From the NCBI RefSeq assembly GCF_008039615.1, contig NZ_VDUZ01000002.1, positions 229,704-293,703 of the forward strand: a stretch of 64,000 bases of DNA. Reading direction: 5' to 3'. The notes beneath the pieces are model-generated. The model saw only the letters and a program-made list of their open reading frames with translations, made no database searches and had not been told where the DNA came from. A program made the position numbers and the translations under genes. The stretch comes from Vineibacter terrae. GTDB lineage: Bacteria; Pseudomonadota; Alphaproteobacteria; Reyranellales; Reyranellaceae. Position 1 is the first letter of the stretch. Each line of letters starts with the position of its first letter. Positions 49,078-63,851 of this stretch are shown here, piece by piece.

Positions 49078-52000
49078 GTCCATCCCCTTTTCATCGGGTC
49101 TGCTGTTCATCCAGAACGTGATCTTCAAGGGCTACGGCCCGGACGTCTTGATCCCCTTTTTCATCGGGTCTGCTGCTCATCCGTGTACACGCTCGACAAG
49201 ATCGCGGATATCGCACAGTCTGGATCCCCTTTTCGTCGGGTCTGCTGCTCATCAGTCGGTTGACCCTAAGAAGTCCCGTCTGACCCGTAGTCTTGATCCC
49301 CTTTTCATCGGGTCTGCTGCTCATCGCCCGGAGATCTACTGCCTCCTGGAGGCCGCTACAGTCTTGATCCCCTTTTCATCGGGTCTGCTGCTCATCTTCG
49401 TGAGCTACGACAGCCCATTCGGACCGCTCTAGTCTTGATCCCCTTTTCATCGGGTCTGCTGCTCATCAAGGGTTCAAGTCCCTTGCCCGCCACCACATGT
49501 CTTGATCCCCTTTTCATCGGGTCTGCTGCTCATCTGGCGCTCCAGTGCCATGCCCGGCAAGCGATCCGTCTTGATCCCCTTTTCATCGGGTCTGCTGCTC
49601 ATCGCACCTGCGGCCCCACCCTCAAGATCAGGGTCAGGTCTTGATCCCCTTTTCATCGGGTCTGCTGCTCATCGGTGGTGGCGTTGCACTGGCGACCGCG
49701 CTGGTTGGGTCTTGATCCCCTTTTCATCGGGTCTGCTGCTCATCCCACCCCATGGTTGCGAAGGTGCGTCAGTACATTGAGTCTTGATCCCCTTTTCATC
49801 GGGTCTGCTGCTCATCCTTACCCGGCTCGCCGTCCTTCGGCTTCGGGAGTCTTGATCCCCTTTTCATCGGGTCTGCTGCTCATCCTGCATCCGGTTCGAT
49901 GCCGGGCAGTACTGACGTCTTGATCCCCTTTTCATCGGGTCTGCTGCTCATCCGGAGGCGAAGGTCCAGCCAGACGTGAATGCGTCTTGATCCCCTTTTC
50001 ATCGGGTCTGCTGCTCATCTGAGGGCACCCATCGGCTGCACGCCGCTCACCAGGTCTTGATCCCCTTTTCATCGGGTCTGCTGCTCATCCAACATGACTA
50101 GACTGTATGTGCCTCGGCACGATGTCTTGATCCCCTTTTCATCGGGTCTGCTGCTCATCGGCGGGGCAACACGCGACGTTCGCCTAACCCGCGTCTTGAT
50201 CCCCTTTTCATCGGGTCTGCTGCTCATCCTTGCGGACGAAATTCGCTACAACGGCGAGAAAAGTCTTGATCCCCTTTTCATCGGGTCTGCTGCTCATCTT
50301 GGGAGGCTACACATACAACATTCGCGACGGCGTCTTGATCCCCTTTTCATCGGGTCTGCTGCTCATCTCACCGCAGGAGTAGCATGGGGTATCGTGAGGC
50401 GTCTTGATCCCCTTTTCATCGGGTCTGCTGCTCATCTTGGGAGGCTACACATACAACATTCGCGACGGCGTCTTGATCCCCTTTTCATCGGGTCTGCTGC
50501 TCATCTCGAGCAAGTCGACGACGACGCGTAGGGTCGCGCGGTCTTGATCCCCTTTTCATCGGGTCTGCTGCTCATCCAAGCTCGCAGCGAGCATGTTCGC
50601 CCTGTCTGGGGTCTTGATCCCCTTTTCATCGGGTCTGCTGCTCATCGGCGCCTTGGGTCGAGGTCGTTGCGGAGTCCGCGGAGTCTTGATCCCCTTTTCA
50701 TCGGGTCTGCTGCTCATCCTATCCCAAGCAGAGCATGCGCGGCCTCGCCTGCCGTCTTGATCCCCTTTTCATCGGGTCTGCTGCTCATCGGCAGCGGAGT
50801 GATGACCATGCCCACCTTCAGTCTTGATCCCCTTTTCATCGGGTCTGCTGCTCATCGTTGTCGATCCACCAATTCGTGGACAATGGCTGGGGTCTTGATC
50901 CCCTTTTCATCGGGTCTGCTGCTCATCTCCGCGCCATCGCACGCGGTGACCACAAGCGTCTTGATCCCCTTTTCATCGGGTCTGCTGCTCATCGCTCGCC
51001 GCGGACATGTTCGCTCTGTCCGGGTCTTGATCCCCTTTTCATCGGGTCTGCTGCTCATCCGTACGTGGAAACTTTCTCCGTACGACGCTTGGCGTCTTGA
51101 TCCCCTTTTCATCGGGTCTGCTGCTCATCGGGGCAGGAGGCATAGGCCATGGCGCTACCGTGGTCTTGATCCCCTTTTCATCGGGTCTGCTGCTCATCGG
51201 TAGCGATTGAGGCATGGCGTAATCGCTGACGTCTTGATCCCCTTTTCATCGGGTCTGCTGCTCATCCACTTCCGAATCGGCATTGCGCCCAAGTGGGCGG
51301 TCTTGATCCCCTTTTCATCGGGTCTGCTGCTCATCCCCAACCGCGCCGACCACATTTCCCAGATCGCCTGGTCTTGATCCCCTTTTCATCGGGTCTGCTG
51401 CTCATCCTGGATGACGGCTTGCACCCTGTGCCTTGTCCGGCCGTCTTGATCCCCTTTTCATCGGGTCTGCTGCTCATCATCGGGGGCGACTGGTACATCT
51501 GGTCCGTTACGCGCGTCTTGATCCCCTTTTCATCGGGTCTGCTGCTCATCACCGCGGTCAAGACCGACATGATCGGCCTGGCCGAGTCTTGATCCCCTTT
51601 TCATCGGGTCTGCTGCTCATCAGACCCGCTCGCAGATGGACCTAGCCGGTGAGCGTCTTGATCCCCTTTTCATCGGGTCTGCTGCTCATCCGAAAGGGTC
51701 CCGGTCGCCCCGCCACGGGCAGGGGTCTTGATCCCCTTTTCATCGGGTCTGCTGCTCATCCTGACGTTGGTGATCGGTTTGCAAGCCCAGACCCGTCTTG
51801 ATCCCCTTTTCATCGGGTCTGCTGCTCATCGGGTTCCAGTCCCGCTCTATTGTCCAGATGACAGGTCTTGATCCCCTTTTCATCGGGTCTGCTGCTCATC
51901 CTCTATCAGACCATCAACGCCCAGTACGTTGTGGTCTTGATCCCCTTTTCATCGGGTCTGCTGCTCATCACAACGGCGACGTCGAATGGTTTTGCGCTTC

Positions 52001-52244
52001 CGTTGTCTTGATCCCCTTTTCATCGGGTCTGCTGCTCATCGGTAATCCAATCACCATTTCAATCTGATCGAGGTCTTGATCCCCTTTTCATCGGGTCTGC
52101 TGCTCATCGACGGATGGCATCAACATGCCCCGACAAATCAGTCTTGATCCCCTTTTCATCGGGTCTGCTGCTCATCCATAGGCCATGCGCCACTACATTT
52201 CCGATTATGTCTTGATCCCCTTTTCATCGGGTCTGCTGCTCATC
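49078..52244 (-). CRISPR. CRISPR array, 46 repeat units, 45 spacers, type III-A
   Basis: 36-bp repeat that reads GTCTTGATCCCC...CTGCTGCTCATC on the plus strand. On the minus strand it has a CCC/GGG hairpin followed by exactly 8 nt, ATCAAGAC, the expected type III 5' crRNA tag; this argues for transcription leftwards, with the cas operon. Spacers are 30-36 nt. Units at 49078 (34 bp, several changes), 49145 (37 bp, extra T) and 49218 (two changes) are degenerate, as at a trailer end; from 49290 on the repeats are identical. The spacer at 50299-50331 is repeated at 50437-50469. Many apparent small frames here are translations of the repeat. Confidence 0.98.
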
Positions 52245-52367
52245 CGAGCTGATCCAAATCTCCATATACATCAACAGACTGGCGCCACCGTTGACGGAAC
52301 CTGACGCACATGTCGAGTTGACCGGCACAGGCGGCACATGGACGCGATCTCTTCACAGCCTCATCCG
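52245..52367 (-). promoter_or_regulatory. Presumed CRISPR leader
   Basis: 123 bp between the last (newest) repeat and the stop codon of the nearest cas2. Somewhat AT-richer next to the repeat (TCCAAATCTCCATATACATC at 52253-52272). Given leftward transcription, it is the place where a leader and new-spacer insertion would lie. It is short for a leader, so the array might also be read through from the cas operon. Confidence 0.5.
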
Positions 52368-52703
52368 TCATCTTGGAGCATTACCCTCCGGTTCTGTCCA
52401 GTGTCTGATCGGCGTATAGATACCGTCCGGCAGTATCGGGCGGCCAATGACATGGACCTGGAGGTTGACCGGAAGCGGATACAGCCTGACATCGTCGCGC
52501 GACGGATCGATGATGCGCGCGATGCGCGTGAGCGCGCCGCGGCATCCGGCCAGCGTGAAGTCGCCGAGGAACACGGAATATTGGACCGGCAGGCAGTCCT
52601 CCTTGAGGGCGTTCCGCAGCCGGGTCAACCGCCGCGCCATGCGGCGGATGCTGGGGTCGCTGACATCGTAGCAGACCAGGTAGCGCGTCCTCACGGCCGT
52701 CAT
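52368..52703 (-). CDS. cas2: Cas2 (second copy, array-proximal)
   Basis: 111 residues. Ferredoxin-like Cas2 fold: RYLVCYDVSDPSIRRMARRL with the conserved Asp after strand 1 (YDVSD), VQYSVFLGDFTLAGCRGAL for strands 2-3, and VRLYPLPVN later. It would form the dimer that bridges Cas1 dimers in the integration complex. Its ATG overlaps the stop of the Cas1-like gene (ATGA). It is distinct in sequence from the other Cas2 at 54449, so this locus has two cas2 genes. Confidence 0.9.
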   Translation of the reverse strand: MTAVRTRYLVCYDVSDPSIRRMARRLTRLRNALKEDCLPVQYSVFLGDFTLAGCRGALTRIARIIDPSRDDVRLYPLPVNLQVHVIGRPILPDGIYTPIRHWTEPEGNAPR

Positions 52704-53491
52704 TGCCTGCGATCCCACAGCCAGATTTCCAGGCGCCGCAGCCGGCGCGACGTCGCAGCGGCCACGGCCGGGCCGACTGCCTCGTAGGCCCGCGCCACGC
52801 GGCGTTGCCCGTCGCCTGCCCTGCGCCAGGCTCGCGGGTGGCGACGCCGATGCGCCAGCACCCGGGACAGCGCCGGCAGCAGCAGCCAGCCGGCAGCCCG
52901 GGCGCAGGCGCCGAACACATCGGCCTGCCGGTCTGGCGCCGGTGCTACCCAGGGCATGCCGACCCCGGCATCCTTCAGGAGCTGCACCATGTGCGCCGCG
53001 AGCAGCCCTTCCAGCCGCCGCAAGACGGCGGTCGCCCAGGGCTGATCCTCGCCGGCAGCCGCGAGGAAAGCGGCGCGCAGGAACGCCGGCCGCAGGTCGC
53101 GAGCAGGCATCATCCGTGGATGGCGCCGCAACAGATCAAGAATAGCCCGACGCTCTTCCGCACGGGCCCAATCGCCGAACGCACCGATGCTGCGCACATC
53201 GTTCTCGAAGGCTGCCAGCAGCCGGGAAAGGTTCACCGCCCGCTGTCGTGCCGGCACACAGTAGCCGACCGGATCGCCATCGGTGGAGACGAAGGTGACC
53301 GGCACGCCGAGCGTCAGGCACCGGGCCAGAGCCTCGGTCGACCACTCGGTGCCCTGGCGGCTCGTGATTCGCGATACCAGGCGCAGCGGCACGCGGGCGT
53401 CCAGCGGCGACAGGCTGGTCGCCACCCGCAGCGCCGGACCATCGAGGCAGACCTGACGCGCCTCGCCGCCGAGATAGAGTGGGCGAGTCAT
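52700..53491 (-). CDS. Cas1-like protein lacking recognisable catalytic residues
   Basis: 263 residues. Residues 1-80 look like the Cas1 N-terminal beta domain: LYLGGEARQVCLDGPALRV at the start, LRLVSRITSRQGTEWSTEAL and GVPVTFVSTDGDPVG. The rest is helical (for example WATAVLRRLEGLLAAHMVQL, DVFGACARAAGWLLLPALSR) and keeps the general spacing of Cas1, but I find neither the Glu of the EG.A motif nor the GFLH histidine; only Asp in RQADVF might correspond to the third ligand. It sits between the canonical cas1 (4-bp overlap) and the second cas2 (4-bp overlap). A degenerate paralogue that could serve as a non-catalytic integrase subunit, or a decaying copy; the intact frame and coupling favour function. 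Confidence 0.7.
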   Translation of the reverse strand: MTRPLYLGGEARQVCLDGPALRVATSLSPLDARVPLRLVSRITSRQGTEWSTEALARCLTLGVPVTFVSTDGDPVGYCVPARQRAVNLSRLLAAFENDVRSIGAFGDWARAEERRAILDLLRRHPRMMPARDLRPAFLRAAFLAAAGEDQPWATAVLRRLEGLLAAHMVQLLKDAGVGMPWVAPAPDRQADVFGACARAAGWLLLPALSRVLAHRRRHPRAWRRAGDGQRRVARAYEAVGPAVAAATSRRLRRLEIWLWDRRQ

Positions 53492-54459
53492 GGCCCATCA
53501 CCGGCGGCGCTGCGTGCCAGCCGCGCAAGCCCGGCCGTGACATGGCGCAGGCGCCGCCGCTCGCGCACAGCGATCGCCTCGAACGCCTCGTAGTAGGCGG
53601 CGCGGCCCGTCTTGCCCAGCAGGCAGGCCCCCTCGACCATGCGGAAGTGGTCGCCGCGCAGCGTGCGGTCGCGAAACAGCGACCACACCAGCTCGTCGAC
53701 CGCGGGACGGCACATCTCGACCAGATCGCAGCCCAGCGATTCGCGCCCGGCCAGCAGCGCATGCAGGAAGCCGATCTGCGGGTCGAGGCCTGCTGTCCAC
53801 GCCGCCCTGACCGCCTCGCCATGCAGCAGGGTGTAGCCCAGCGACAGGCAGGCATTGACCGGGTCGCGGGGCGGGCGCCGGTTGCGCCCAATGAATCCAA
53901 GCGAGTCCGGGAACAGCGTCATGTAGGCCCGGAAAAAGGACGCGGCCGCGGCACCTTCGCTGCCGCGCAATGCCTCCAACGCCGTCACGGCGGGCAGGCG
54001 CGCCAGGATCCCGTCGATCTCCGCCAGGGCATCGAACATGGGCTTGCGCAAGTCCGGCCGCTGCTGCATCGCGAGCGCGATCAGCCGCCGGTGCCCCGTG
54101 ACCTTGGCGTGGACGGCGTGCCGCGCGAGGTCGACCACCCGCTGGCTTCGTGCGGCCAGGCGCATCTGTCCAAAGCGGACGGACGCGTCGCCATGCGGGC
54201 AGCCAAGCAGGTGGGCGCGGGGAGCGCCCGTCCTGCCGCCCAGGACGAAAAGCCCGATCCCGCGCTCGCCCAACTCCGCCAGAAGCCGGACGCTGACGGT
54301 GCCGGCACGCCGCAGCACCACCCGGTCGGCGCCCGCCAGCGGCAGGCCGGCGACCCGCTCACCATCGAGCCGCACGACCAGGGCGCCATGGTCGACATCG
54401 AGATGCGGTTCCTTGCGGTCAATGTAGATGGCGGGCATCGCGGCCTCGTCATCCGACAT
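53488..54459 (-). CDS. cas1: CRISPR-associated endonuclease Cas1
   Basis: 323 residues. Canonical catalytic residues: Glu168 in LRGSEGAAAASFFRAY, His233 in IGFLHALLAGRESLG and Asp245 in GCDLVEMCRP. N-terminal beta domain (MPAIYIDRKEPHLDVD) with VSVRLLAELGERGIGLFVL. Integrates new spacers with Cas2. ATG 54459 overlaps the upstream cas2 by 11 bp; ATG 54438 (MPAIYID) with GAGG upstream is an equally good start. Confidence 0.95.
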   Translation of the reverse strand: MSDDEAAMPAIYIDRKEPHLDVDHGALVVRLDGERVAGLPLAGADRVVLRRAGTVSVRLLAELGERGIGLFVLGGRTGAPRAHLLGCPHGDASVRFGQMRLAARSQRVVDLARHAVHAKVTGHRRLIALAMQQRPDLRKPMFDALAEIDGILARLPAVTALEALRGSEGAAAASFFRAYMTLFPDSLGFIGRNRRPPRDPVNACLSLGYTLLHGEAVRAAWTAGLDPQIGFLHALLAGRESLGCDLVEMCRPAVDELVWSLFRDRTLRGDHFRMVEGACLLGKTGRAAYYEAFEAIAVRERRRLRHVTAGLARLARSAAGDGP

Positions 54460-54736
54460 AGAAGAAGGGCTCGTCCCGCGGCTTCACCGCGATGCCGAGC
54501 GCATGCACGCCCATGCGTGGATCGAGCCGCAGGATGAAGACCGAGTCCTCGCGTGGTTCAACCAGCGACCCGAGCACCCGGCGCAGCCCGGCCAGCTCGC
54601 CCGGCGACAGGAAGCACTCGTGGACCGATTTCTGGCCGCCGGTCGAGTATTCCTTGACGGCGTCGTGAACGCGGGCCAGCCGGGCCGGCTCGGCGATATC
54701 GTAGCTGACGATGTGAAGAGGGCGGGATCTGGACAT
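54449..54736 (-). CDS. cas2: Cas2 (first copy)
   Basis: 95 residues. LHIVSYDIAEPARLARVHDA is strand 1 with the conserved Asp, followed by a Q..VHECFLSPGELAGLRRVL segment and SVFILRLDPRM. Typical short Cas2. ATG 54736 (MSRSRPLHIV); the frame is open further upstream but that part is not Cas2-like. Overlaps cas1. A 49-bp gap separates it from the effector genes, so the adaptation genes may have their own translation unit. Confidence 0.92.
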   Translation of the reverse strand: MSRSRPLHIVSYDIAEPARLARVHDAVKEYSTGGQKSVHECFLSPGELAGLRRVLGSLVEPREDSVFILRLDPRMGVHALGIAVKPRDEPFFYVG

Positions 54737-54785: not shown

Positions 54786-56081
54786 TCAAGCACCGGCGAA
54801 ATCGAGGAAGCGCACCGTTTCCTGGTCGCGCCGGAAGGCCGCGTCATCAGCGTGATCGTGGCGCAGCAGATCCTCCAAGGTTTCGAGCAGCCGACGCCAG
54901 GCGCCATGGTCGCGCAATGCCTGGGCGGTGAAGCCGTGATTCAGCACACTGAGGTTCCGCGACCTCACACCCAGAGCCTCGCTGTTGCCCAGCTGCAGCA
55001 AACGCTGGGCCAGCGGATCCTTCTTCTGCTTGAGCAGGCTTGCGGCGGCCTCACGGGCCAGGCTCACTGTCCCGCCGCGGCTCTCCGATATATCGCGCCG
55101 CCGTTGGCGCAAGGCAATGACGTCGGGATCGTCGGCCGGCACCCGGCTGCTGTCGATGCCGAGGTCGAACAGGCGCGCCTGGCCGACCAGCTCGAGGACC
55201 CGATACGCCCGCACCAGCGCATCCTCGAACTGGCCATGGCGCACCCGGCGGCCGGCATTTGCCAGCAGGTCGATGCTGAGCAGCCGCAGCCATCGCGCCA
55301 TCGCCGCGGAATCGGCCTGATCCGGCTGGTCCGCCAGCGTTCGTATCCATGCCCGCACGGAGGGCGGCGGCACCAGCAGCTTCCAGGCCGCCGGCAGCGC
55401 GTCGGTATCGATGGCCAGGTCGCGCACCGCCTCGGCCCTGTAGTCGAGGCGATCCCAGGCCGCGAAGGCCCGCGCCATCGCCCGCATGGCCCGCAGGGCA
55501 CCGATTTCCGACGCCTCGATCAACCCGACGGCGAGGGGCGCATCGGGGTCGGGCAGCAGGTCGGCGGCCGCCGTGAAAGCCCCTTGCCGCATCAGGCCGC
55601 AGGCCAGATCGACGCGACGCCGGTCCGCGACCTTGCTCGCGGGGACCTCGCGAATGATCTCGGCGCCCGGGACGACGGACCCGACACTGCTGCGCTCGCC
55701 GGTGATGTAGCGCAGCCGCGGCAGCTCGTGCCGCATGGCCGCGAGCACGAGGGCGGCGCTCATCGCCTTGGTGCCGCGCGTGAAGTCGACCAGGATGTCC
55801 TGAGGCGCGCACCCGCCGCGCCGCAGCGTCTCGATCACCGCGTCGAAGTGCCGGAAGCAGGCGTCGGCATCGTCCTCGAGGCCCGCCTGCGGCAGCGGGC
55901 GGATGTCGTAACAGCGGGCCGGGTCGAGCGCTGCGGCGTTCGCCGCGGTCAACGTCGAGGTCAGCAGAACGACCGTGTCCCATTCGCCTGTCTCGATGGA
56001 TTTCCGCAGCGGCGCCAGGAGCGATCCCTCCAGGTTGTTGCGATCGCCGGTGCCGACGGTGAGAACCAGTGCCCGTCCCAT
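54786..56081 (-). CDS. CARF-HEPN ancillary RNase (TIGR02710 / Csm6-Csx1-like)
   Basis: 431 residues. N-terminal CARF domain: ALVLTVGTGDRNNLEGSLL, WDTVVLLTS, ILVDFTRGTKAMSAALVLAA (a nucleotide-binding loop) and RLRYITGERSS. A helical C-terminal half ends with a HEPN active site R-x6-H, RNLSVLNH (Arg375, His382). This is the cas02710 family: activated by cyclic oligoadenylate from Cas10, it would cleave RNA unspecifically. It is encoded directly after csm5 (2-bp gap). Confidence 0.86.
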   Translation of the reverse strand: MGRALVLTVGTGDRNNLEGSLLAPLRKSIETGEWDTVVLLTSTLTAANAAALDPARCYDIRPLPQAGLEDDADACFRHFDAVIETLRRGGCAPQDILVDFTRGTKAMSAALVLAAMRHELPRLRYITGERSSVGSVVPGAEIIREVPASKVADRRRVDLACGLMRQGAFTAAADLLPDPDAPLAVGLIEASEIGALRAMRAMARAFAAWDRLDYRAEAVRDLAIDTDALPAAWKLLVPPPSVRAWIRTLADQPDQADSAAMARWLRLLSIDLLANAGRRVRHGQFEDALVRAYRVLELVGQARLFDLGIDSSRVPADDPDVIALRQRRRDISESRGGTVSLAREAAASLLKQKKDPLAQRLLQLGNSEALGVRSRNLSVLNHGFTAQALRDHGAWRRLLETLEDLLRHDHADDAAFRRDQETVRFLDFAGA

Positions 56082-56083
56082 CG

Positions 56084-57361
56084 TCAGTCCTCGACCTTCA
56101 ATCGGTGGCGTGAAACCCACTCGGTATCGCGGGTGTCGAGCCAGCGAACAAGGACTTCGCTGCCCTTGTCATCCAGCACCTCGACGGCCTCGCCGTCGAC
56201 CGTGGCGCGCCGGGATGTCCGTGCCGACACACCTGGTCGCCGGCCGGCGGCGGGCGCCGCCGCCCTGGCAAGCCCGGCCGCGAACGTCCGAGCGGCGTCT
56301 TCGCCATCGAACAGGGCGAGCCAGCCAAAGCCCCAAGGTTCGTGCTCGCTGCCGACCACGGCCCGTGTCCCCCCCTCGTCCATGTCCTGCCGGTTCTGCG
56401 GTGACCATCCGCGACGCAACCCGTCAATGGAAGCGCTCTCGAAATGACTGAACCGCCCCACGCGCAACAGGATCGGGTACCGCGACGGGCGGCCGGAAGG
56501 CAGGTCGCGCACGGGCGCTCGCGCGTAGAAGCGTTGCTTCTCCGCCGCCCAGCGCCCGCGGAAAAAGCCGTCGACGGCGTCGAGGAGCTCATTGACGGCG
56601 ATCGGCGATCCGGGCGCCTTGTGTCCATCCCTGCGCGCCGCCCGCACGGCCTGGTCGACGTCAACCCGCAATTCCAGTGGGAACATCGTCCCCGCCCGCA
56701 GCGCTTCGAAATGCATCTGCATGTCGTTCGACCTGCCGTCGCGGCGGCGGTTCTTCACGTGCTCGATCCGCGTCGCCTCGGGCGGCAGCAGCGTATCGGC
56801 CACCCGGATGAAGCGGAACGGGTCGGCGTCGGTCTCCAGCCTCCCCCCGGCCCCAAGCAGCTCCGCCTGGATCTGGTCGGAGACGCGCCCCCACCGTCCA
56901 CCCCTGACGTCGGCGCGCGCGGCGATCTGCCGAAGCGCCGGCAACCGGCTGCTGGCGCGCGCGCTCAGCAGCGCCGTGCGGATGGCCCCCTTCACCGCGC
57001 TGCCGGGCAGGAACGGCCGGCCGCCGCTGCGGATGAAGGCATGGATGCGGCCTGCCCGGAGCGGGTTGGCGACGGCATCGCCTATCTCGCGGACGGAGTC
57101 GGGCGACACCTCGATCCGGTCGAGGACGTGCCGGTCGCCGACCACGTTGTGAAGGAGCTGCTGCGCCTGCTTCAGCTCGCCGTTGTCCACGGCCTGGCGG
57201 AAACGGACCTGATCCTTCGCTGTGAGGCTGGCGGCCACCACGGCGGGCTCGAACCGTTCCAGGCGGGTGCCGCGAAGCCGGAAGGCTTCGGGGGTCCAGG
57301 TCGAACCATCGCCGACATGGACCGGCACCATGGCCACCGCATGCAAGGGGAGGAGGGTCAC
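56084..57361 (-). CDS. csm5: Type III-A effector subunit Csm5
   Basis: 425 residues, Cas7-like RAMP at the 3' end of crRNA. PVHVGDGSTWTPEAF near the N-terminus, ...IHAFIRSGGRPFLPGSAVKGAIRTAL (quoted by its core LPGSAVKGAIRTAL) as the glycine-rich RAMP motif, and GFGWLALFDGEDAARTF late. Longer than average Csm5, with a C-terminal ~45-residue extension after an Ala/Arg/Pro linker (SARTSRRATVDG...) that looks like a small beta domain. Starts within csm4 (ATGA). Confidence 0.92.
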   Translation of the reverse strand: MTLLPLHAVAMVPVHVGDGSTWTPEAFRLRGTRLERFEPAVVAASLTAKDQVRFRQAVDNGELKQAQQLLHNVVGDRHVLDRIEVSPDSVREIGDAVANPLRAGRIHAFIRSGGRPFLPGSAVKGAIRTALLSARASSRLPALRQIAARADVRGGRWGRVSDQIQAELLGAGGRLETDADPFRFIRVADTLLPPEATRIEHVKNRRRDGRSNDMQMHFEALRAGTMFPLELRVDVDQAVRAARRDGHKAPGSPIAVNELLDAVDGFFRGRWAAEKQRFYARAPVRDLPSGRPSRYPILLRVGRFSHFESASIDGLRRGWSPQNRQDMDEGGTRAVVGSEHEPWGFGWLALFDGEDAARTFAAGLARAAAPAAGRRPGVSARTSRRATVDGEAVEVLDDKGSEVLVRWLDTRDTEWVSRHRLKVED

Positions 57362-58317
57362 TGCAGGGCCTCCGTGAAGCGCACGGCGACGTGGCGCGCG
57401 TCGTGACGGATGCTGCCGTCTTCCTCGTGCACGTCGCGCAGCAGGATACCGAACGGCTCGTCACCCTCGGCGGCGAACGTCGCGCCCGGACGCGCCAACA
57501 GGATCGGCCGCTTCCACGGCCGGCGGCCGCGCCGCGCCATGCCCTCGCCGATCTTCCCGAAATGCGTGACGAGCCGGTAGCGCGGCGACCGCATCCCGTC
57601 CGTGATCACGCCGTGCGACAGGCTGAGCCAACGATTGCCGGTCGGGCTGTCCAGCATTGCATCGCGCCTGACATCGGCGACGTCGAAGCGGCCGCGCCCC
57701 CAGGTAGCGTCGCGCCCGTAACCCATCTCGCCCACGCTCTGGAACAGATTTCTGACCGCATCGGCAGACGCCGGCGTGCGCACATAGACGTCGCGCAACC
57801 CGCCGTCCGCCTCGTCGGCAAAGCGCCAGTCCTCGCCGACGAAGAACAGGCCGCCCTCCTTGGGGGTGGTTCCCGTTCGCCGGTCGATGCGGTTGTGAGC
57901 AACGCGCACATCGGCCAGCGACGACGACGACGGCTCAATGGCAAGCCGCGGCACCAGGGCATTCTCGTTCAGCCCGTTGCGGATCGCCTGGAAATCCTCG
58001 ACCTTGACCCAGGGCCGCCGCGCCTGGCTTTTGCGCGCGGCGGCCGCGTCGGCGACGGCGCTGGGCGATGCGCCGGTCGGCATCGGGGTCCGCAACGCCG
58101 GCGAGAGAAGGGGCCGCGGCAGCAGCCCGGCCGGGAAGCCGTCCGAAACGACCCATGGCGTCTCGTTCTGGTCTTCCAGGAAGCGCTGCAGCCGTGCGTC
58201 GCCCTCGCGCTCCAGCACGGCCCAGCACAAATGACCGAACAGCGTGCCCGACGTAAGCGGTGTGCCCAGCGGCGCGCGCAGGCGCAGACGCACGCGATAC
58301 AGCGGCGGAGGCATCAC
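57358..58317 (-). CDS. csm4: Type III-A effector subunit Csm4
   Basis: 319 residues, Cas5-like subunit that binds the 5' crRNA tag next to Cas10. PLGTPLTSGTLFGHLCWAVL is the typical Csm4 opening, RIDRRTGTTPKEGGLFF follows, and the RAMP glycine loop reads GYGRDATWGRGRF. Overlaps csm3 and csm5 by 4 bp each. Confidence 0.94.
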   Translation of the reverse strand: MMPPPLYRVRLRLRAPLGTPLTSGTLFGHLCWAVLEREGDARLQRFLEDQNETPWVVSDGFPAGLLPRPLLSPALRTPMPTGASPSAVADAAAARKSQARRPWVKVEDFQAIRNGLNENALVPRLAIEPSSSSLADVRVAHNRIDRRTGTTPKEGGLFFVGEDWRFADEADGGLRDVYVRTPASADAVRNLFQSVGEMGYGRDATWGRGRFDVADVRRDAMLDSPTGNRWLSLSHGVITDGMRSPRYRLVTHFGKIGEGMARRGRRPWKRPILLARPGATFAAEGDEPFGILLRDVHEEDGSIRHDARHVAVRFTEALQ

Positions 58318-59093
58318 GCGGCCTTGAGCGTGACGAGGCGCGGCGCCTGGTGCGGATCGAAGCGCTCGACGCGGAAGCGGTTGTCGATGGCGTGCTGCTT
58401 ACCATCAAGGTCGCGGTACTGCAGGCCTTCGAAGCGGACGCGGCCGTAGCCGCGCGACCCGGAGCCGCCGAGCGCGTCCTGCTCCAGCAGCGAAAGACCG
58501 GCCAGCAGCCAGTTGAGGCACTCTTCGTCACGAGCGCCGCCATCGCCGGTGTCGTACACGCGGAAGACAAGGTCGAGGTCGAACTTCGCCCCGGCCGGCA
58601 CGCGCTCGGTCTGGCGCGGCCCGATCCGGTCATGGGCCTTGCCGGCGATACGGTCGATGACCACCTCCGTCTTCTCCTCGGTCAGGGGCAGTCCGCGGTC
58701 GGTGGCGTGCTGCCGCCATTCGCCGTCGAGCATGGCATCGCGTACCAGCAGGCGGGTGGGCCCGCCCTTCCACACTTCCTTGCCGATCGGCGAACCGAAG
58801 ATGCGCAGGATCGGGTCCGCTTCGTCGGCCGTGGCGTTCTCGCTGCGTTCGTTGGCGCCCCACGGCTGGCCGTCCTGACGGATCTTGTCGAACGCCCATT
58901 CCAGCAGGAAGCGCAGCCTTCCCTTGATGCTGGAGCCGGGAATGTACGGTTCCTGGGTGTGCGGGTGCTTGATCACCGGATTGTCGATGCCACCAATCTC
59001 GATGACATCCTTTCCCGCACCGATATGCAGGCCGGATAGAAGAAGGATCTTGCCCGTGATCGCGGCACGTCCGAGCAAGGCGAGGTCGGTCAT
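58314..59093 (-). CDS. csm3: Type III-A backbone subunit and target RNase Csm3
   Basis: 259 residues, Cas7 family. GLHIGAG (21-27), catalytic Asp37 in IGGIDNPVIKHP (the residue that cuts target RNA at 6-nt intervals), YIPGSSIKGRLR, and C-terminal LGGSGSRGYGRVRFEG. The catalytic Asp is present, so RNA cleavage should be active. Separated from csm2 by 2 bp. Confidence 0.96.
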   Translation of the reverse strand: MTDLALLGRAAITGKILLLSGLHIGAGKDVIEIGGIDNPVIKHPHTQEPYIPGSSIKGRLRFLLEWAFDKIRQDGQPWGANERSENATADEADPILRIFGSPIGKEVWKGGPTRLLVRDAMLDGEWRQHATDRGLPLTEEKTEVVIDRIAGKAHDRIGPRQTERVPAGAKFDLDLVFRVYDTGDGGARDEECLNWLLAGLSLLEQDALGGSGSRGYGRVRFEGLQYRDLDGKQHAIDNRFRVERFDPHQAPRLVTLKAA

Positions 59094-59095
59094 GG

Positions 59096-59581
59096 TCAGT
59101 TCCCGGGTCGCTTGGTTTCGTAGAACTTGTGGTAGGCGATGACCGCTTCGAACACGCGCCGAAACGCCTCGTAGCTCGTCCGGTCCGTGACGGCAGCAGC
59201 ATGGCTGACGAAGAACTTCAAGAGTTCCCGCGGAATCTGCTTGCGGCCGCTCGCATAGGCCGCCTTGGCCTTCAGCAAAGCCATCTGCGTGCAGATTGCC
59301 TCGTCAGAGATGCCTGATCGTCGGCCGATCGCCAGCACATCGCCGTAGAAGCGGCGGATCTGGCTGGCAGGCGTCGCCGCGATGCTCTGTGCGAGCTCTT
59401 CCGCCTGCTCGCCAACCAGCGCCGCATTGGGCCGGCGTCGGTCCGCGTCGACGAAGTACCTGATGTCGTCCGGCTTCGGCATCGTCACCGTCTCGCCGCC
59501 GCCCGGACCACCGGGACCGCGCGGCCCCGAGCCGCCGCGCGGTCCATGATTCTGCGGCTGCCTGTCATACGGTCCCACCAT
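59096..59581 (-). CDS. csm2: Type III-A small subunit Csm2
   Basis: 161 residues. N-terminal ~35 residues are Gly/Pro-rich and disordered (GPRGGSGPRGPGGPGGGE). The rest is a helical bundle: DDIRYFVDADRRRPNAALV, AEELAQSIAATPASQIRRFY, LLKAKAAYASGRKQIPREL and VFEAVIAYHKFYE, all Csm2-like. It lines the crRNA-target duplex. The Gly/Pro tail is an unusual addition. ATG 59581 follows GGGAGA. Confidence 0.92.
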   Translation of the reverse strand: MVGPYDRQPQNHGPRGGSGPRGPGGPGGGETVTMPKPDDIRYFVDADRRRPNAALVGEQAEELAQSIAATPASQIRRFYGDVLAIGRRSGISDEAICTQMALLKAKAAYASGRKQIPRELLKFFVSHAAAVTDRTSYEAFRRVFEAVIAYHKFYETKRPGN

Positions 59582-59591
59582 GCGTGTCTCC

Positions 59592-62129
59592 CTAGCGATT
59601 GCGATAGAGCGCGATGACCAGCGGCACGACCGCCGACGGCAATGCCTCGCCGCCGCCGGCCATAAGGCCGCTGTCCATGAGCGAGTCGAAGTACCGCAGC
59701 TCGCCCTCGTTATCGCGCCCCGGAAACTGGCGGCGCAGATGATAGGCCCAGCGCGCGCGCCAGTCGGCGGCGCGCAGCGAGAGCACCTCGCCCTGCGCGG
59801 CTGCCTTCTCCCGGGAAAACGAAAGGCATCGATAGAGGAAAGCCGTGCTGACCGTGTTGCCACGGATACGCGTGCTGACCTGGTCGGCGACCGCGATCGA
59901 CCGCGCGAGGGCCGGCCATGTGAGAGGCAGCTCGTCGATCAGGGACACCTTGTTGCGGCCGCCGTCCTTGGCCTGGTCGAGCCGCCCCTCCGCCCGCGCG
60001 ACGGCGCGGGGCAGCGGCTCGGAGACGCCGCACAGCTCGATCGCCGCCGAGAGCGTGACGCTCGGATTGGCACCGACATGCGCCCTGAACGCCACCTCCA
60101 GCGCGGCTGCGAGCGTCACGATCCTGTTCCACGGGCCGATCAGCAGCAGGTCGTCGCCGCCGGCGTAGACCGTATAGGTATCGGGAAACTCCCGGCGCAG
60201 CAGGTCCGGCAGCACGACCGTGAAGAAGGCGTCCATCATGCGGGACAGGGTTGCAAGGCGGCCGAGGCTCAGGCCGCTGCCAAGGCCGACCGAAAAGACC
60301 TGCCCGAGGCGATCGACATCCGCCTTCAGCACCCCCAGCATGGGGCGCCCGACGAGGGCGCCATCCTTGCCGTCAGCCTCGCGCGACAGCGCCGCGAGAT
60401 GCTCGAAGGTCATCATGTCGCCTGTGTCCAGGTCGCGCGCGTCAGGGCTCAGATCGGCAAAGCGCCGATCCTGGGCATCGTTCTCCGCCAGCCGAGGCAC
60501 ATAGTTCGCGACGAACCGGCGCGCCGCCGGACGGGTGCTCGCGTTCCCGGCCTCAGCAGGATCGGCGACCCGCCAGCCGCTGACCACGCGGCGCCACGCT
60601 TCGACATCGCCAGCCGGCAGAGAGTCCTCGAGGAGGGCGAGGGTCAGATCCCCGGGCACGCTGATCTGGCGCAGCACCTTGCCTTCCGGCAACGGACGAT
60701 GGCACCACAGGACCGTGTGCGTCCTGGGCAACGCCCGGCCGATCTCGTACTCGTCCGAGCAGGCTTCGCAGCGCACGACGTCGTCGACCACGCGCGAGGC
60801 CGGGCGGACGCCACAGGCCGGGCAGGCACCGTCGGCGCCATAGGTGACGGCGAGCGTGCCCATCGCCTGGGTCGACAAGGCTCGATGCTTGGCATCCTCC
60901 GCGACACGCTGCGCTTCAGCCCAGGTGGCGCCGAAGCGATCCTGCAGCAGATCGTGGCCGCAGAACGCCGGCCCGAGGCCGAGGTTCAACACAAGGTCGC
61001 CGTAGTAGCGCGCACGCAGCCATGAATCGAGCGACCGACGGATGTCGGCGACGGCGGATTCGGTTTCCGCCAGAGCCGGGACCAGCAGCACGAAGCGCCC
61101 GCCGGCGGCCATCAGCTCGCAGTAGGGCGGCAGGCCAAGCTTGCGCCGACACAGCAGGGAAGCCGTCTCGACCAGCGCACCCATCAGGAAGGAGCGGGCC
61201 CGCAGGATGCGGGCGCTGCCCTTGACCTGCTGCGCCGCAAGGCGGAACAGCGTCGACTGGATCCCCGAAAGATCGCCGGTCAGGAAGCGAAACTTGCGGC
61301 GCGCGCGGTCCTGGATGGCGGCGGCGTCGTGCAACTCGCCGTGCGCCTCGTGGAAGCGGTGCAGGCAGCTGGCGATCGCAGCCACCGACTTGTTGTGGTC
61401 GTGCAGCGGCACGTCGGGCTGGTCGATTGTCGAGGACGGGATCGCCCAGGTGAAACGCTCCGACAACGACAGCAGACCCGCGTGGAACAACTCCGGGTCG
61501 GGCTCGGCACGGCAAAGCTCGACGAAGGCATCGAAGAATTTCGGCCAAGCCTCGGCGTAGGCCGCCTTCTGCACCTCGCCAGCGATTGGCTCCGGCGCCA
61601 GCGTCGCCGGGCCAAGCTCCGCAACCTTGTGGTTCAGCCTCCGCCTGTCCGGCGGATCGCCGCGCCCGAGGTCGATGCCGGCGAAGATGCTGCGCAGCGG
61701 CGTGCGCCGGAAGCCGTCCCGCCGCAGCGCCGGCCTGCCGACAGCCCCGCCATCCTCCTCCTCGGCGGCTTCGTCCTTCTTCTTGCGATCCATGCCGGCC
61801 GACAGCCGGTCGGCCTCGGCCGAGAGCCAATGGAGCGACGTCGCCGGGTTGTGATGGTAGACCGCGGCATCGCGCACACGGTTGGCGTTGATGCCAGCCG
61901 GAAAGGCGACACCGCGCTGCTCGAGGGCATGGAAGAAGGCGTCGGCCCACAGCGCGTGCCAGTGCGTCGAGCGGCCCTTGAAGCCAGGCAGCACCACGGA
62001 TGCGCGGCTGCGCACCTGCTCCGGCAGGGCGTCGTAGCCATCATGGGCACGCTGCATGAACTTGCCGATGTCCTCGAGAAATGCACCGAGGGCCACTTCG
62101 TTCAGGTTCGGGGTATCACTCGGCGCCAT
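59592..62129 (-). CDS. cas10: Type III-A Cas10/Csm1, cyclic oligoadenylate synthase
   Basis: 845 residues. N-terminal HD-like region ALGAFLEDIGKFMQRA: the histidine of the HD pair is Glu19, followed by Asp20, so the ssDNase is probably defective although HHNP (~91-94) is kept. First Palm domain, zinc ribbon CPACGV...CEACSDE (four Cys), second Palm with the cyclase motif YAGGDDLLLIG (GGDD ~657-660), and a helical C-terminal domain. On target binding it makes cyclic oligoadenylate that activates the CARF proteins encoded nearby. Confidence 0.95.
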   Translation of the reverse strand: MAPSDTPNLNEVALGAFLEDIGKFMQRAHDGYDALPEQVRSRASVVLPGFKGRSTHWHALWADAFFHALEQRGVAFPAGINANRVRDAAVYHHNPATSLHWLSAEADRLSAGMDRKKKDEAAEEEDGGAVGRPALRRDGFRRTPLRSIFAGIDLGRGDPPDRRRLNHKVAELGPATLAPEPIAGEVQKAAYAEAWPKFFDAFVELCRAEPDPELFHAGLLSLSERFTWAIPSSTIDQPDVPLHDHNKSVAAIASCLHRFHEAHGELHDAAAIQDRARRKFRFLTGDLSGIQSTLFRLAAQQVKGSARILRARSFLMGALVETASLLCRRKLGLPPYCELMAAGGRFVLLVPALAETESAVADIRRSLDSWLRARYYGDLVLNLGLGPAFCGHDLLQDRFGATWAEAQRVAEDAKHRALSTQAMGTLAVTYGADGACPACGVRPASRVVDDVVRCEACSDEYEIGRALPRTHTVLWCHRPLPEGKVLRQISVPGDLTLALLEDSLPAGDVEAWRRVVSGWRVADPAEAGNASTRPAARRFVANYVPRLAENDAQDRRFADLSPDARDLDTGDMMTFEHLAALSREADGKDGALVGRPMLGVLKADVDRLGQVFSVGLGSGLSLGRLATLSRMMDAFFTVVLPDLLRREFPDTYTVYAGGDDLLLIGPWNRIVTLAAALEVAFRAHVGANPSVTLSAAIELCGVSEPLPRAVARAEGRLDQAKDGGRNKVSLIDELPLTWPALARSIAVADQVSTRIRGNTVSTAFLYRCLSFSREKAAAQGEVLSLRAADWRARWAYHLRRQFPGRDNEGELRYFDSLMDSGLMAGGGEALPSAVVPLVIALYRNR

Positions 62130-62136
62130 GATTGGA

Positions 62137-63270
62137 TCACTTCGACAAGGCAGATTCGATCACGATATCGGTCAGGGTGTCAGACAGTCCATACCGCGAT
62201 GCTGGCCGGCGCCCCGACCGGACGATGCGGTATGGCGCGGCGGCATAGCCCAGCGCATCAACCACAAGCTTGTTGACGCGCGAGACGCGCTCCTCGAGCC
62301 AGTCCTTGTCGATGCCGTCGGCGAGCGCCCGCCGGACGCGCCCGGACTGGCGGCGCGCCGCGGCCGGGAGGGAATCGAAATTGTCAAGAAACTCGGCGAC
62401 CGGGACATTCTGCGGATACACGATCGCGCCCTGCGCCGGCGCCCGCTGGCGCCGCCGCGCCAGCCACAGATAGAAGGCGAAATCCACCGGCGGCAGCCGG
62501 AGCACGCGGCCAGCGCAAACCAGCTCCAGCCTGGCGGGCACGATGCGCACCGCGTGTGGGCCCAGCGCTGCCTGCGCTTCCGCGACCGTCTCGGCAAAGC
62601 CGCGGCCGCCGTCGAGCAGCAGGCGCGGCAGCCCCGCGCGCAGGCGCAGGAACGGGATGTCGGTGAGAACCACCCGCGCATCGTCCGTGCAGATCGGCCG
62701 GTTGTCGCGTGGCGCGATCAGGACGCGCGGCCTGGCCGGTGGGAAGAAGAATTCGGGATGGTTCTCGAAGGGCGACGCGACCAGGACATGCGTGAGGCGG
62801 TCCTGCGGGCGGCCATAGAGCGACAGGGCATAGCCCAGCAGGAAGCCCATGGTCTTGCGGCCACCGGCAATCGATGCGCAGATCGCCGAATCCCGCCGGG
62901 CCGTCTCGGCCCTGACGATCTCGACGATGCGGTCCGCCGCGACCATCGAGTCTTCCGCGGATGTGATGTCCACGAGCGGGGTGCCGGACGCGCCATCGAG
63001 CACATCGATCCGGGTCGCCTTCGTGACCTTCAGAACCTGCCGGCAATGCTGCCGTGCGAAGCTGCCAAAGGCACCGGAACGGCTGTCCAGAAGCTGCAGG
63101 CGGATTCGCTCCGCCCCATCCATCGTCGTTATCAGCCGGATGTGGGTCGGGATGAAGGGCGGGTCGGTGCGCTTCACCAGAGCGAACAGCGTCTCGGTCA
63201 CGATCTGGGGGGTCAGTCCGACGACGGCCAACAACAGGCGCCTGGGATACGCGGCAGGCTCGCTGGTCAT
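62137..63270 (-). CDS. CARF protein of NE0113 type (putative ring nuclease Csm6-like)
   Basis: 377 residues. N-terminal CARF-like domain: RRLLLAVVGLTPQIVTETLF, IRLITTMDGAERIRLQLL, VDITSAEDSMVAADRIVEIV, CASIAGGRKTMGFLLGYAL and HVLVASPFENHPEFFFP, hallmarks of the NE0113/TIGR02584 family. The C-terminal ~120 residues (DFAFYLWLARRRQRAPAQGA ... VNKLVVDALG ... SRYGLSDTL) look like a winged helix. I see no HEPN R-x4-6-H motif. The family is often called a CRISPR-associated ring nuclease; it may degrade or sense cyclic oligoadenylate. Its ATG overlaps the cas6 stop. Confidence 0.82.
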   Translation of the reverse strand: MTSEPAAYPRRLLLAVVGLTPQIVTETLFALVKRTDPPFIPTHIRLITTMDGAERIRLQLLDSRSGAFGSFARQHCRQVLKVTKATRIDVLDGASGTPLVDITSAEDSMVAADRIVEIVRAETARRDSAICASIAGGRKTMGFLLGYALSLYGRPQDRLTHVLVASPFENHPEFFFPPARPRVLIAPRDNRPICTDDARVVLTDIPFLRLRAGLPRLLLDGGRGFAETVAEAQAALGPHAVRIVPARLELVCAGRVLRLPPVDFAFYLWLARRRQRAPAQGAIVYPQNVPVAEFLDNFDSLPAAARRQSGRVRRALADGIDKDWLEERVSRVNKLVVDALGYAAAPYRIVRSGRRPASRYGLSDTLTDIVIESALSK

Positions 63271-63851
63271 GCATGCCCGGCTGCAGCGACGCGGTACTGG
63301 CCCAGACCCATGCTCGCGCTCTTGCCGGCCCCGACCCATTGGCCTATCGACAGCCAAGGGAAGAGCTCGGCCGCGCCCTCGGCCAGATCGACCGTGCAGC
63401 TTCCTACGATTCCGCCCATCTTCATGCGCGTGCCCTGGCGAGCCGAATAGCGCTGCCAATCACGCCACTCGACCTGCCGGTCACGAATCCGGCTCGCCAT
63501 CGCCAGCATCTTCACGCGAACATAGTCGATGTCGAGGGGAGCACCAGCGTGGAAGGCAGCGAGGGCCGATACGCGCCGCACGGCCGCACCGATGATATGA
63601 GATGCTTCCAGGCGGTCCGGGGTTATCAGGTCGCCATCGATCTTGAGACGCAGCGGTGTGCGCAGCTCAACCCTGATCGTCCGTTGCGGCGGCTCCGGAT
63701 CGGGGCTGACCGGAGAGACCGCGCGACAGCAGTCCGCGCCCGCGAACACGACTTCGGACAAATCGCCGCCGATCGTCCGTTCGTGCAAGACCTCCCGCAG
63801 CTCGAGCCGTGCCCTGCCGGGCCCGATACCGCCAAGACCGGCCTCAGCCAT
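63267..63851 (-). CDS. cas6: Cas6 crRNA-processing endoribonuclease, N-terminally incomplete in the window
   Basis: 194 residues from the first in-window ATG, all from the C-terminal RAMP half: GLGGIGPGRARLELREV, TPLRLKIDGDLITPD, EWRDWQRYSARQGTRMKMGG, LSIGQWVGAGKSASMGLGQY. Full Cas6 is usually 250-320 residues. The frame continues open past the ATG (FGLAYVIRAM-AEAG reads as Cas6) and stays open to base 64000, but beyond about 63885 the sequence turns AT-rich and does not look like Cas6. It would cut repeats to leave the 8-nt ATCAAGAC tag. Either truncated by an insertion or its N-terminus is atypical. Confidence 0.78.
   Translation of the reverse strand: MAEAGLGGIGPGRARLELREVLHERTIGGDLSEVVFAGADCCRAVSPVSPDPEPPQRTIRVELRTPLRLKIDGDLITPDRLEASHIIGAAVRRVSALAAFHAGAPLDIDYVRVKMLAMASRIRDRQVEWRDWQRYSARQGTRMKMGGIVGSCTVDLAEGAAELFPWLSIGQWVGAGKSASMGLGQYRVAAAGHA

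Follow-up and report, generated by a model that had tools for sequence, protein, structure and literature searches.

This work describes a doubled adaptation module in a CRISPR (clustered regularly interspaced short palindromic repeats) locus of Vineibacter terrae, found in a 64,000-nt stretch of contig NZ_VDUZ01000002.1 (positions 229,704 to 293,703; this whole stretch is referred to here as the window, and its own numbering is used below). On the minus strand, the order of features is cas6, a CARF protein gene, cas10, csm2, csm3, csm4, csm5, and a gene for a Csm6-like protein, then cas2A, cas1, cas1', and cas2B, followed by a leader and an array. The four-gene module cas2A-cas1-cas1'-cas2B is therefore flanked by a type III-A effector operon on one side and by a 44-repeat array on the other.

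A second Cas1-like gene and a second cas2 in the adaptation module

The first gene of the module, cas2A (54449..54736), encodes a 95-residue Cas2 with YDI and GGQKS motifs and a C-terminal FFYVG tail (31.2 bits to NCBIfam TIGR01573 and 45.4 bits to Pfam). It is followed by cas1 (53488..54459), the product of which carries the full catalytic triad (Glu168, His233, and Asp245), and by cas1' (52700..53491), which encodes a diverged 263-residue Cas1 lacking the triad and matching the PADLOC model PDLC01185 (E value of 7e-11). The last gene, cas2B (52368..52703), encodes a Cas2 with YDV and QYSVF motifs (37.6 bits to TIGR01573 and 54.2 bits to Pfam). Both Cas2 proteins exceed the TIGR01573 cutoff of 24.5 bits. 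The genes are tightly coupled: cas1 and cas1' overlap by 4 bp, as do cas1' and cas2B if the latter starts at the ATG at 52703 (its open frame extends to a GTG at 52718). A standard adaptation module has one cas1 and one cas2, whereas two cas1-like and two cas2 genes are present here. No reverse transcriptase (RT) domain was matched in the four module genes or in the other scanned cas genes of the window, which sets the locus apart from RT-Cas1 systems; no Cas4 domain was found in the four module genes.

Each triad residue of Cas1 is invariant in all 80 rows of an alignment of partner-Cas1 proteins. In a profile-profile alignment (hhalign) of 74 Cas1' against 80 Cas1 proteins, which reached 98.5% probability over 256 columns, Glu168 and His233 face gaps in the window Cas1' and Asp245 faces Ala195. 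Cas1' scores 26.6 bits against the Pfam Cas_Cas1 family (PF01867; cutoff, 22.3), compared with 218 bits for Cas1, and the match covers residues 7 to 110 only; among three relatives tried, two lie above the cutoff (L062 and L019) and one below (L002, 19.9). Cas1' has the family score and, in its predicted structure, the N-terminal beta and helical C-terminal domains of PF01867, and it lacks the Glu-His-Asp triad of that family.

The predicted structure of Cas1', built from an alignment of 74 rows, has a mean predicted local distance difference test score (pLDDT) of 93.3 and a predicted template modeling score of 0.74 (the Cas1 model has a pLDDT of 93.8). It consists of an N-terminal beta domain to approximately residue 84, followed by a helical C-terminal domain. 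Among the structure matches listed (50 from Foldseek and 50 from VIA-align), all titles name Cas1, Cas1-Cas2, or casposase except those of 2yzs, which nonetheless matches a Cas1 profile, and 3god, which we take to be a Cas1. Full-length superpositions give a root mean square deviation above 11, probably owing to a different angle between the two domains in the model; the C-terminal domain alone superposes at 2.9 over 160 residues (8flj_B). An initial reading of the window made from the letters alone (the sequence-only reading) had already placed the four genes at these coordinates, assigned the Cas1 triad, noted the missing Glu and His of the Cas1-like protein, and pointed to the 4-bp overlaps. 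All of this holds, and the Cas1 fold that it proposed for Cas1' is the one predicted.

The four-gene order recurs in other genomes

To place the module among other genomes, a profile scan with the partner-Cas1 alignment covered one genome per species for 84,980 species of the Genome Taxonomy Database (GTDB). Of the at least 590 stretches that it gave, 559 code for a relative; the best-matching 80 of the 559 were retained, a locus set that by design leans toward relatives of the window Cas1. A cas1' gene is present in 65 of these 80 nearest loci. The plain order cas2A-cas1-cas1'-cas2B occurs in 59; because the same order is found in so many loci fetched by Cas1, chance gene order is ruled out, and cas1' is no local decaying duplicate, the outcome that the sequence-only reading had named as a danger to its proposal. 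Five further loci have cas2A-cas1-cas1' with a contig end next or a cas2B that was not recognized, and one (L031) has the four-gene order with an internal partial duplication. Thirteen loci read cas2A-cas1-cas2B and lack cas1', and two have cas2A-cas1 only (L071 ends there, and in L042 cas2B looks frame-broken).

Two of these variants deserve description in their own right. The locus with the partial tandem duplication (L031:8806-11847) begins with a first cas2A that looks frame-broken; after cas1 and a second, intact cas2A come a remnant of cas1 and then cas1' and cas2B. The three-gene modules, in which one Cas1 lies between two different Cas2 proteins, are those of L011, L014, L015, L021, L027, L029, L032, L033, L044, L046, L058, L064, and L088; with a single Cas1 between two Cas2 groups, they may merit separate study.

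Carriers of cas1' belong to at least three phyla (Pseudomonadota, Nitrospirota, and Acidobacteriota), and cultured carriers include Methylotuvimicrobium buryatense, Thauera phenylacetica, Ectothiorhodospira mobilis, and Halochromatium glycolicum. Among 398 Pseudomonadota genomes drawn evenly, seven gave a strong Cas1' match (88 to 226 bits), the V. terrae genome included. Cas1' follows cas2A-cas1 in all seven; cas2B comes next in six, and the seventh runs off its contig. In none of the seven is Cas1' present without Cas1. A further 44 genomes matched at no more than 65 bits, and all 23 of these weaker loci that were examined matched the Cas1 model. When the PADLOC model was used instead, it was matched in 8/398 genomes at the phylum level (the seven real cases and one ordinary Cas1, L008), in 3/385 at the class level (V. 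terrae itself, G512, and one ordinary Cas1, L010), and in 4/74 of family f38 (three real cases and L008).

All recognized cas1' copies uncut by contig ends are open frames of at least 245 amino acids, as found by a search of open frames that would miss broken copies. With start codons in the fetched loci assigned by script, cas1' and cas2B overlap or lie within 10 bp of each other in 52 of 62 loci (counts that omit the window, L028, L031, L059, and L080). A Cas1' scan of viral contigs gave 14 stretches matching a pattern and no relative, and a tblastn search of plasmids with two Cas1' proteins gave no match.

Upstream and downstream Cas2 proteins form separate groups

The 84 upstream and 77 downstream Cas2 proteins separate on a tree with support of 98 and a single label change (the tree omits L020, L023, L028, and L067); the window proteins fall in group A (Cas2A) and group B (Cas2B), respectively. 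Mean identity is 48% within group A, 41% within group B, and 26% between the two Cas2 proteins of one locus. Given this separation and the low identity between groups, the doubled Cas2 is a stable feature and not a recent copy. Since both groups are also present in the 13 loci without cas1', Cas2B does not depend on Cas1', and the doubled Cas2 is a wider feature than Cas1' itself.

Inheritance and selection of cas1'

On a tree of partner-Cas1 proteins (omitting L006 and L028, the latter apparently a copy of L009), 71 cas1' carriers lie inside one group of 78 rows with support of 99. Five absences are nested in that group (L011, L014, L027, L042, and L088), and nine three-gene loci lie outside. 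The presence label requires six changes on this tree, four of which are forced by well-supported branches alone. A single gain of cas1' followed by about five losses is the more likely, though unproven, reading of this pattern. In L014, the interval between cas1 and cas2B contains a 66-residue frame with a weak match to the Cas1' model (E value of 0.019), perhaps a cas1' remnant. A second tree, of 20 Cas1' and 49 Cas1 rows, places all Cas1' proteins on one side of a branch with support of 100. No nearest group emerged among the Cas1 groups as the origin of Cas1': the distances to the partner Cas1, the three-gene Cas1, and other Cas1 are alike.

The last residue of Cas2A is G, A, H, S, or Q in all 72 cas1' carriers, V, L, or I in all nine outer three-gene loci, and G or A in the five nested absences. 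As Cas2A is a likely contact partner, this matching change hints that its tail touches Cas1' but does not prove it, and it may represent one event on the tree.

The ratio of nonsynonymous to synonymous substitution rates (dN/dS) for cas1' ranges from 0.01 to 0.50 in 15 pairs and is at most 0.27 in 13; the pairs were hand-chosen among close relatives, and some loci were used twice. These values indicate purifying selection on Cas1'. Conservation is distributed in an inverted manner in the two proteins: over the same 65 loci, mean pairwise identity is 36% in the N-terminal and 20% in the C-terminal domain of Cas1', compared with 43% and 50%, respectively, in Cas1. No invariant column was found in the alignment of the Cas1' C-terminal domain. 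A conserved N-terminal domain with a weakly conserved C-terminal domain fits a protein that has kept its pairing domain and lost catalysis. The Cas1' alignment (A3) holds 64 loci, P0002, and nine further proteins; it omits L006 and L067 (truncated), L059 and L080 (start mis-set), and the near-copies L020, L023, L028, and L070. A further alignment (A4) omits L006, L020, L023, L028, L046, L067, L070, L071, and the controls L008 and L010.

CRISPR array, leader, and effector genes

The CRISPR array of the window (49146..52244, minus strand) comprises 44 repeats of 36 nt, with a common exact 23-mer, and spacers of 33.5 nt on average; additional degenerate repeat copies extend its far end from approximately 49078. 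In minus-strand orientation, the window repeat has the ending AAGGGGATCAAGAC, which is near the AAGGGATTAAGAC of most related loci; across the arrays of L011 to L090 and the window, most repeats have the 3' end GGGATTAAGAC. Repeats are 37 nt long in 32 of 38 four-gene arrays and 36 nt long in all five outer three-gene arrays, as in the window. One spacer of the window array occurs twice (50305-50331 and 50443-50469), two repeat units apart and within 107-nt identical segments, which suggests a duplicated array segment.

Mean spacer length is 33.6 in the 38 four-gene arrays, 33.8 in five outer three-gene arrays, and 33.5 in three arrays of nested absences (P = 0.58). The leader (52245..52367, minus strand; ∼123 bp), which lies between cas2B and the first repeat, was assigned by position and by a block of roughly CAAC, then GCAAG, then TTGA some 25 to 45 bp before the first repeat. 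Using a regular expression picked after seeing the data, and searching the 60 bp before the first repeat in 33 loci, this block was found in 27 leaders (22 of 28 four-gene and all five three-gene leaders), compared with a mean of 3.1 and a maximum of 10 in shuffled sequences. Neither spacer length nor the leader block gives clear support for a Cas1'-specific role in length or leader recognition. The suggestions of the sequence-only reading that Cas1' might set prespacer length or bind the leader are not supported by this evidence: mean length is alike in the 38 arrays with and the 8 without cas1', and the block is not peculiar to cas1' carriers. The same P value of 0.58 was the ground for rejecting a ruler function of Cas1' for mean spacer length; speaking against that rejection, the within-array spread is larger in four-gene loci (mean standard deviation of 1.35, versus 0.89 and 1.05; P = 0.034, uncorrected, with kinship not controlled and the near-copies L019 and L020 both counted).

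The effector operon of the window contains cas10/csm1 together with csm2 to csm5, as expected of type III-A. On the minus strand, cas6 (63267..63851) scores 54.5 bits to Pfam CRISPR_Cas6; it is followed by a CARF protein gene of the NE0113 family (62137..63459; TIGR02584, 199.7 bits) and by cas10/csm1 (59592..62129; PADLOC Cas10, 344 bits, with Pfam Cas10 palm2 and Csm1_B matches). Next come csm2 (59096..59863; TIGR01870, 52.4 bits, matched in the final third of the open frame, such that the true start likely lies downstream), csm3 (58314..59093; TIGR02582, 212 bits), csm4 (57358..58317; TIGR01903, 65.9 bits, cutoff of 55), and csm5 (56084..57361; TIGR01899, 58.7 bits, cutoff of 38.3). A Csm6-like CARF-HEPN protein (54786..56120; TIGR02710, 126.4 bits, cutoff of 83.9) completes the operon.

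Neighboring genes in the fetched loci were sampled by length, taking one large non-module open reading frame of at least 500 amino acids from each of 56 of the 80 loci. Of these 56 proteins, 19 match Cas10/Csm1 and 13 match Cas10/Cmr2, and one protein may match both. A further set of up to two frames of 200 to 520 amino acids per locus on the cas1 strand, capped at 129 frames, includes five matches to Cmr3, with csm2 or csm5 relatives in other loci. As both Csm and Cmr neighbors are found, the module serves both III-A and III-B systems. Among the 25 of 67 families listed for the 129 frames, there was no RT or Cas4. Five of the 56 largest frames match adenosine deaminase models (alignment A5) and are perhaps CARF-adenosine deaminase effectors. 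Elsewhere in the V. terrae genome, a second CRISPR locus on contig C77 (L092/L093) has a different repeat and one further cas1, an ordinary one, which sits in a 603-residue open frame that is perhaps a fusion.

Interpretation of the module

In known integrases, one Cas1 of each dimer joins the DNA ends and the other is structural, and the N-terminal beta domain of Cas1 serves pairing. We favor, with moderate confidence, the reading that the four genes form a conserved adaptation module of a type III-A locus, in which Cas1' would be a dedicated noncatalytic partner of the active Cas1 within a Cas1-Cas2 integrase centered on two different Cas2 proteins. This reading builds on the recurrent gene order, the intact active site of one Cas1 and the lost site of the other, the grouping of Cas1', the purifying selection on it, and the two Cas2 groups. 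Through its conserved beta domain, Cas1' would take the structural place in each dimer, thereby keeping active Cas1 always at the two reacting ends. A Cas2A-Cas2B pair may form the middle of the complex; an asymmetric center is suggested more weakly, and, less certainly, the complex could tell its two halves apart and hence determine the orientation of spacer insertion. In the Pseudomonas aeruginosa Cas1-2/3 complex, which comprises four Cas1 and two Cas2/3 subunits, active Cas1 is described at the ends and inactive Cas1 as walls of the repeat channel (PMC12259127). There is therefore a ready place for a dedicated inactive subunit, and, by analogy, Cas1' with its N-terminal domain and lost catalysis could occupy the wall position. 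More tentatively, we propose a four-subunit integrase of active Cas1 and obligately inactive Cas1' around a Cas2A-Cas2B heterodimer, in which polarity would come from subunit composition rather than from a protospacer-adjacent motif or host factors; the two-Cas2 form would have arisen first or lie outside, with the inactive Cas1 added once.

Several observations weigh against the assignment of Cas1' as a dedicated partner. All five nested loci without cas1' keep cas1, and four keep an open cas2B (perhaps short at its start in L027; that of L042 is the frame-broken-looking one), so Cas1' is dispensable and Cas1 is presumably able to pair with itself. Protein identity is lower for Cas1' than for Cas1 in 14 of the 15 pairs, with one tie, and a weakly conserved C-terminal domain is unexpected for the lining of a DNA channel. 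Of 74 Cas1' proteins, 46 keep the Asp that corresponds to Asp245; the argument that the family as a whole is inactive therefore comes from the absent Glu and His. Finally, both intended outgroup rows of the Cas1 tree are long-branched, and because the ordinary Cas1 L008, which is one of the two, is placed within the cas1'-carrier group, the history read from that tree is not firmly rooted.

Some of these observations would suit a Cas1' that acts outside the Cas1 dimer, as an accessory DNA-binding or docking protein that holds prespacer ends, recruits the type III effector or a nuclease, or helps to find the leader. The apparent losses with cas1 kept, the lower identity, the weak C-terminal domain, and the larger spread of spacer lengths (again, uncorrected) all agree with such a role. 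We nevertheless regard it as unlikely, given that the best-conserved part of Cas1' is the beta domain used for pairing in Cas1, that the leader block is present in all five three-gene leaders, and that mean spacer length is equal with and without cas1'.

It is more doubtful that Cas1' and Cas2B assemble into a complex of their own next to an ordinary Cas1-Cas2A integrase. The close spacing of cas1' and cas2B speaks for this arrangement, but the 13 loci with both Cas2 groups and no cas1', all nine outer loci among them, are unexpected if Cas2B needed Cas1'. On the same ground, a Cas1' with a Cas2 of its own, as the sequence-only reading had put it, was rejected. A slightly slimmer chance is given to another enzymatic activity, such as prespacer trimming by a metal site reorganized around the remaining Asp: besides that Asp, an Asp lies four residues earlier in 37 of 74 proteins, and a Glu is found at position 237 in 51 of 74, but none of these columns is invariant, and the window Cas1' itself has Ala at the Asp245 position. 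That Cas1' is a redundant or decaying, functionless duplicate is very improbable; the lost catalytic residues, the five nested absences, and the possible remnant in L014 would fit decay, but dN/dS is at most 0.50 in all 15 pairs, the protein is kept in three phyla, and the uncut copies recognized by the open-frame search (blind to broken ones) are all open. Local decay of the window copy was likewise rejected on dN/dS and the conserved loci. The view of the sequence-only reading that the locus is an unusual adaptation module is supported as the best reading.

Comparison with known systems

The Cas1' family already has a name in PADLOC: PDLC01185, labeled "Cas1, diverged variant, second in the loci," matches all 74 Cas1' proteins (E value of ≤0.001; best, 6.7e-147) and was probably built from this family. 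The label records only where the gene lies and that it has diverged; it is silent on lost catalysis, two Cas2 groups, and function. A type III-A locus of Methylobacter sp. KS41 was reported to have "two copies of cas1/cas2" (PMC6119699). Locus L062 of our set, which bears the name of that strain, has the order cas2A-cas1-cas1'-cas2B; the passages in question treat the genes as copies and do not comment on divergence or catalytic residues. A contig list in PMC11742911 includes cas2-cas1-cas1-RT. Matches to "diverged cas1" in PMC12669027 were not confirmable as Cas1, as the passages concern a diverged Cas10, and those of PMC3150331 gave no information about another Cas1. The Cas1' arrangement received no functional or structural treatment in the open-licence papers searched, a set that leaves out most subscription papers. 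The suggestion of the sequence-only reading that this may be a new complex thus stands in part: the family was already modeled, whereas the open-licence literature searched contains no description of the missing triad, the pair of Cas2 groups, or the inverted pattern of conservation.

Other elaborated adaptation modules of type III or type I systems are the RT-Cas1 and Cas4-Cas1 fusions, which differ from the window module in that its four genes have no RT or Cas4 domain. To our knowledge, type III adaptation has been little studied. In known integrases, the same Cas2 chain forms both halves of the center. The P. aeruginosa Cas1-2/3 and Escherichia coli Cas1-Cas2 systems resemble the present module in having a Cas1 with the Glu-His-Asp triad, a Cas2, and a leader and array beside the genes. 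The P. aeruginosa complex is alike, too, in that some Cas1 subunits are inactive among its four Cas1 and two Cas2/3 (PMC12259127); it is encoded by one Cas1 and one Cas2 gene, compared with the two diverged Cas1 genes and two Cas2 groups of the present module. According to the same source, one Cas1 chain serves in both the catalytic and the structural parts of known integrases. In the module described here, the catalytic and structural Cas1 roles and the two Cas2 halves appear to be split into separate genes, which offers a test of which Cas1 position does what and of how the polarity of type III insertion is set.

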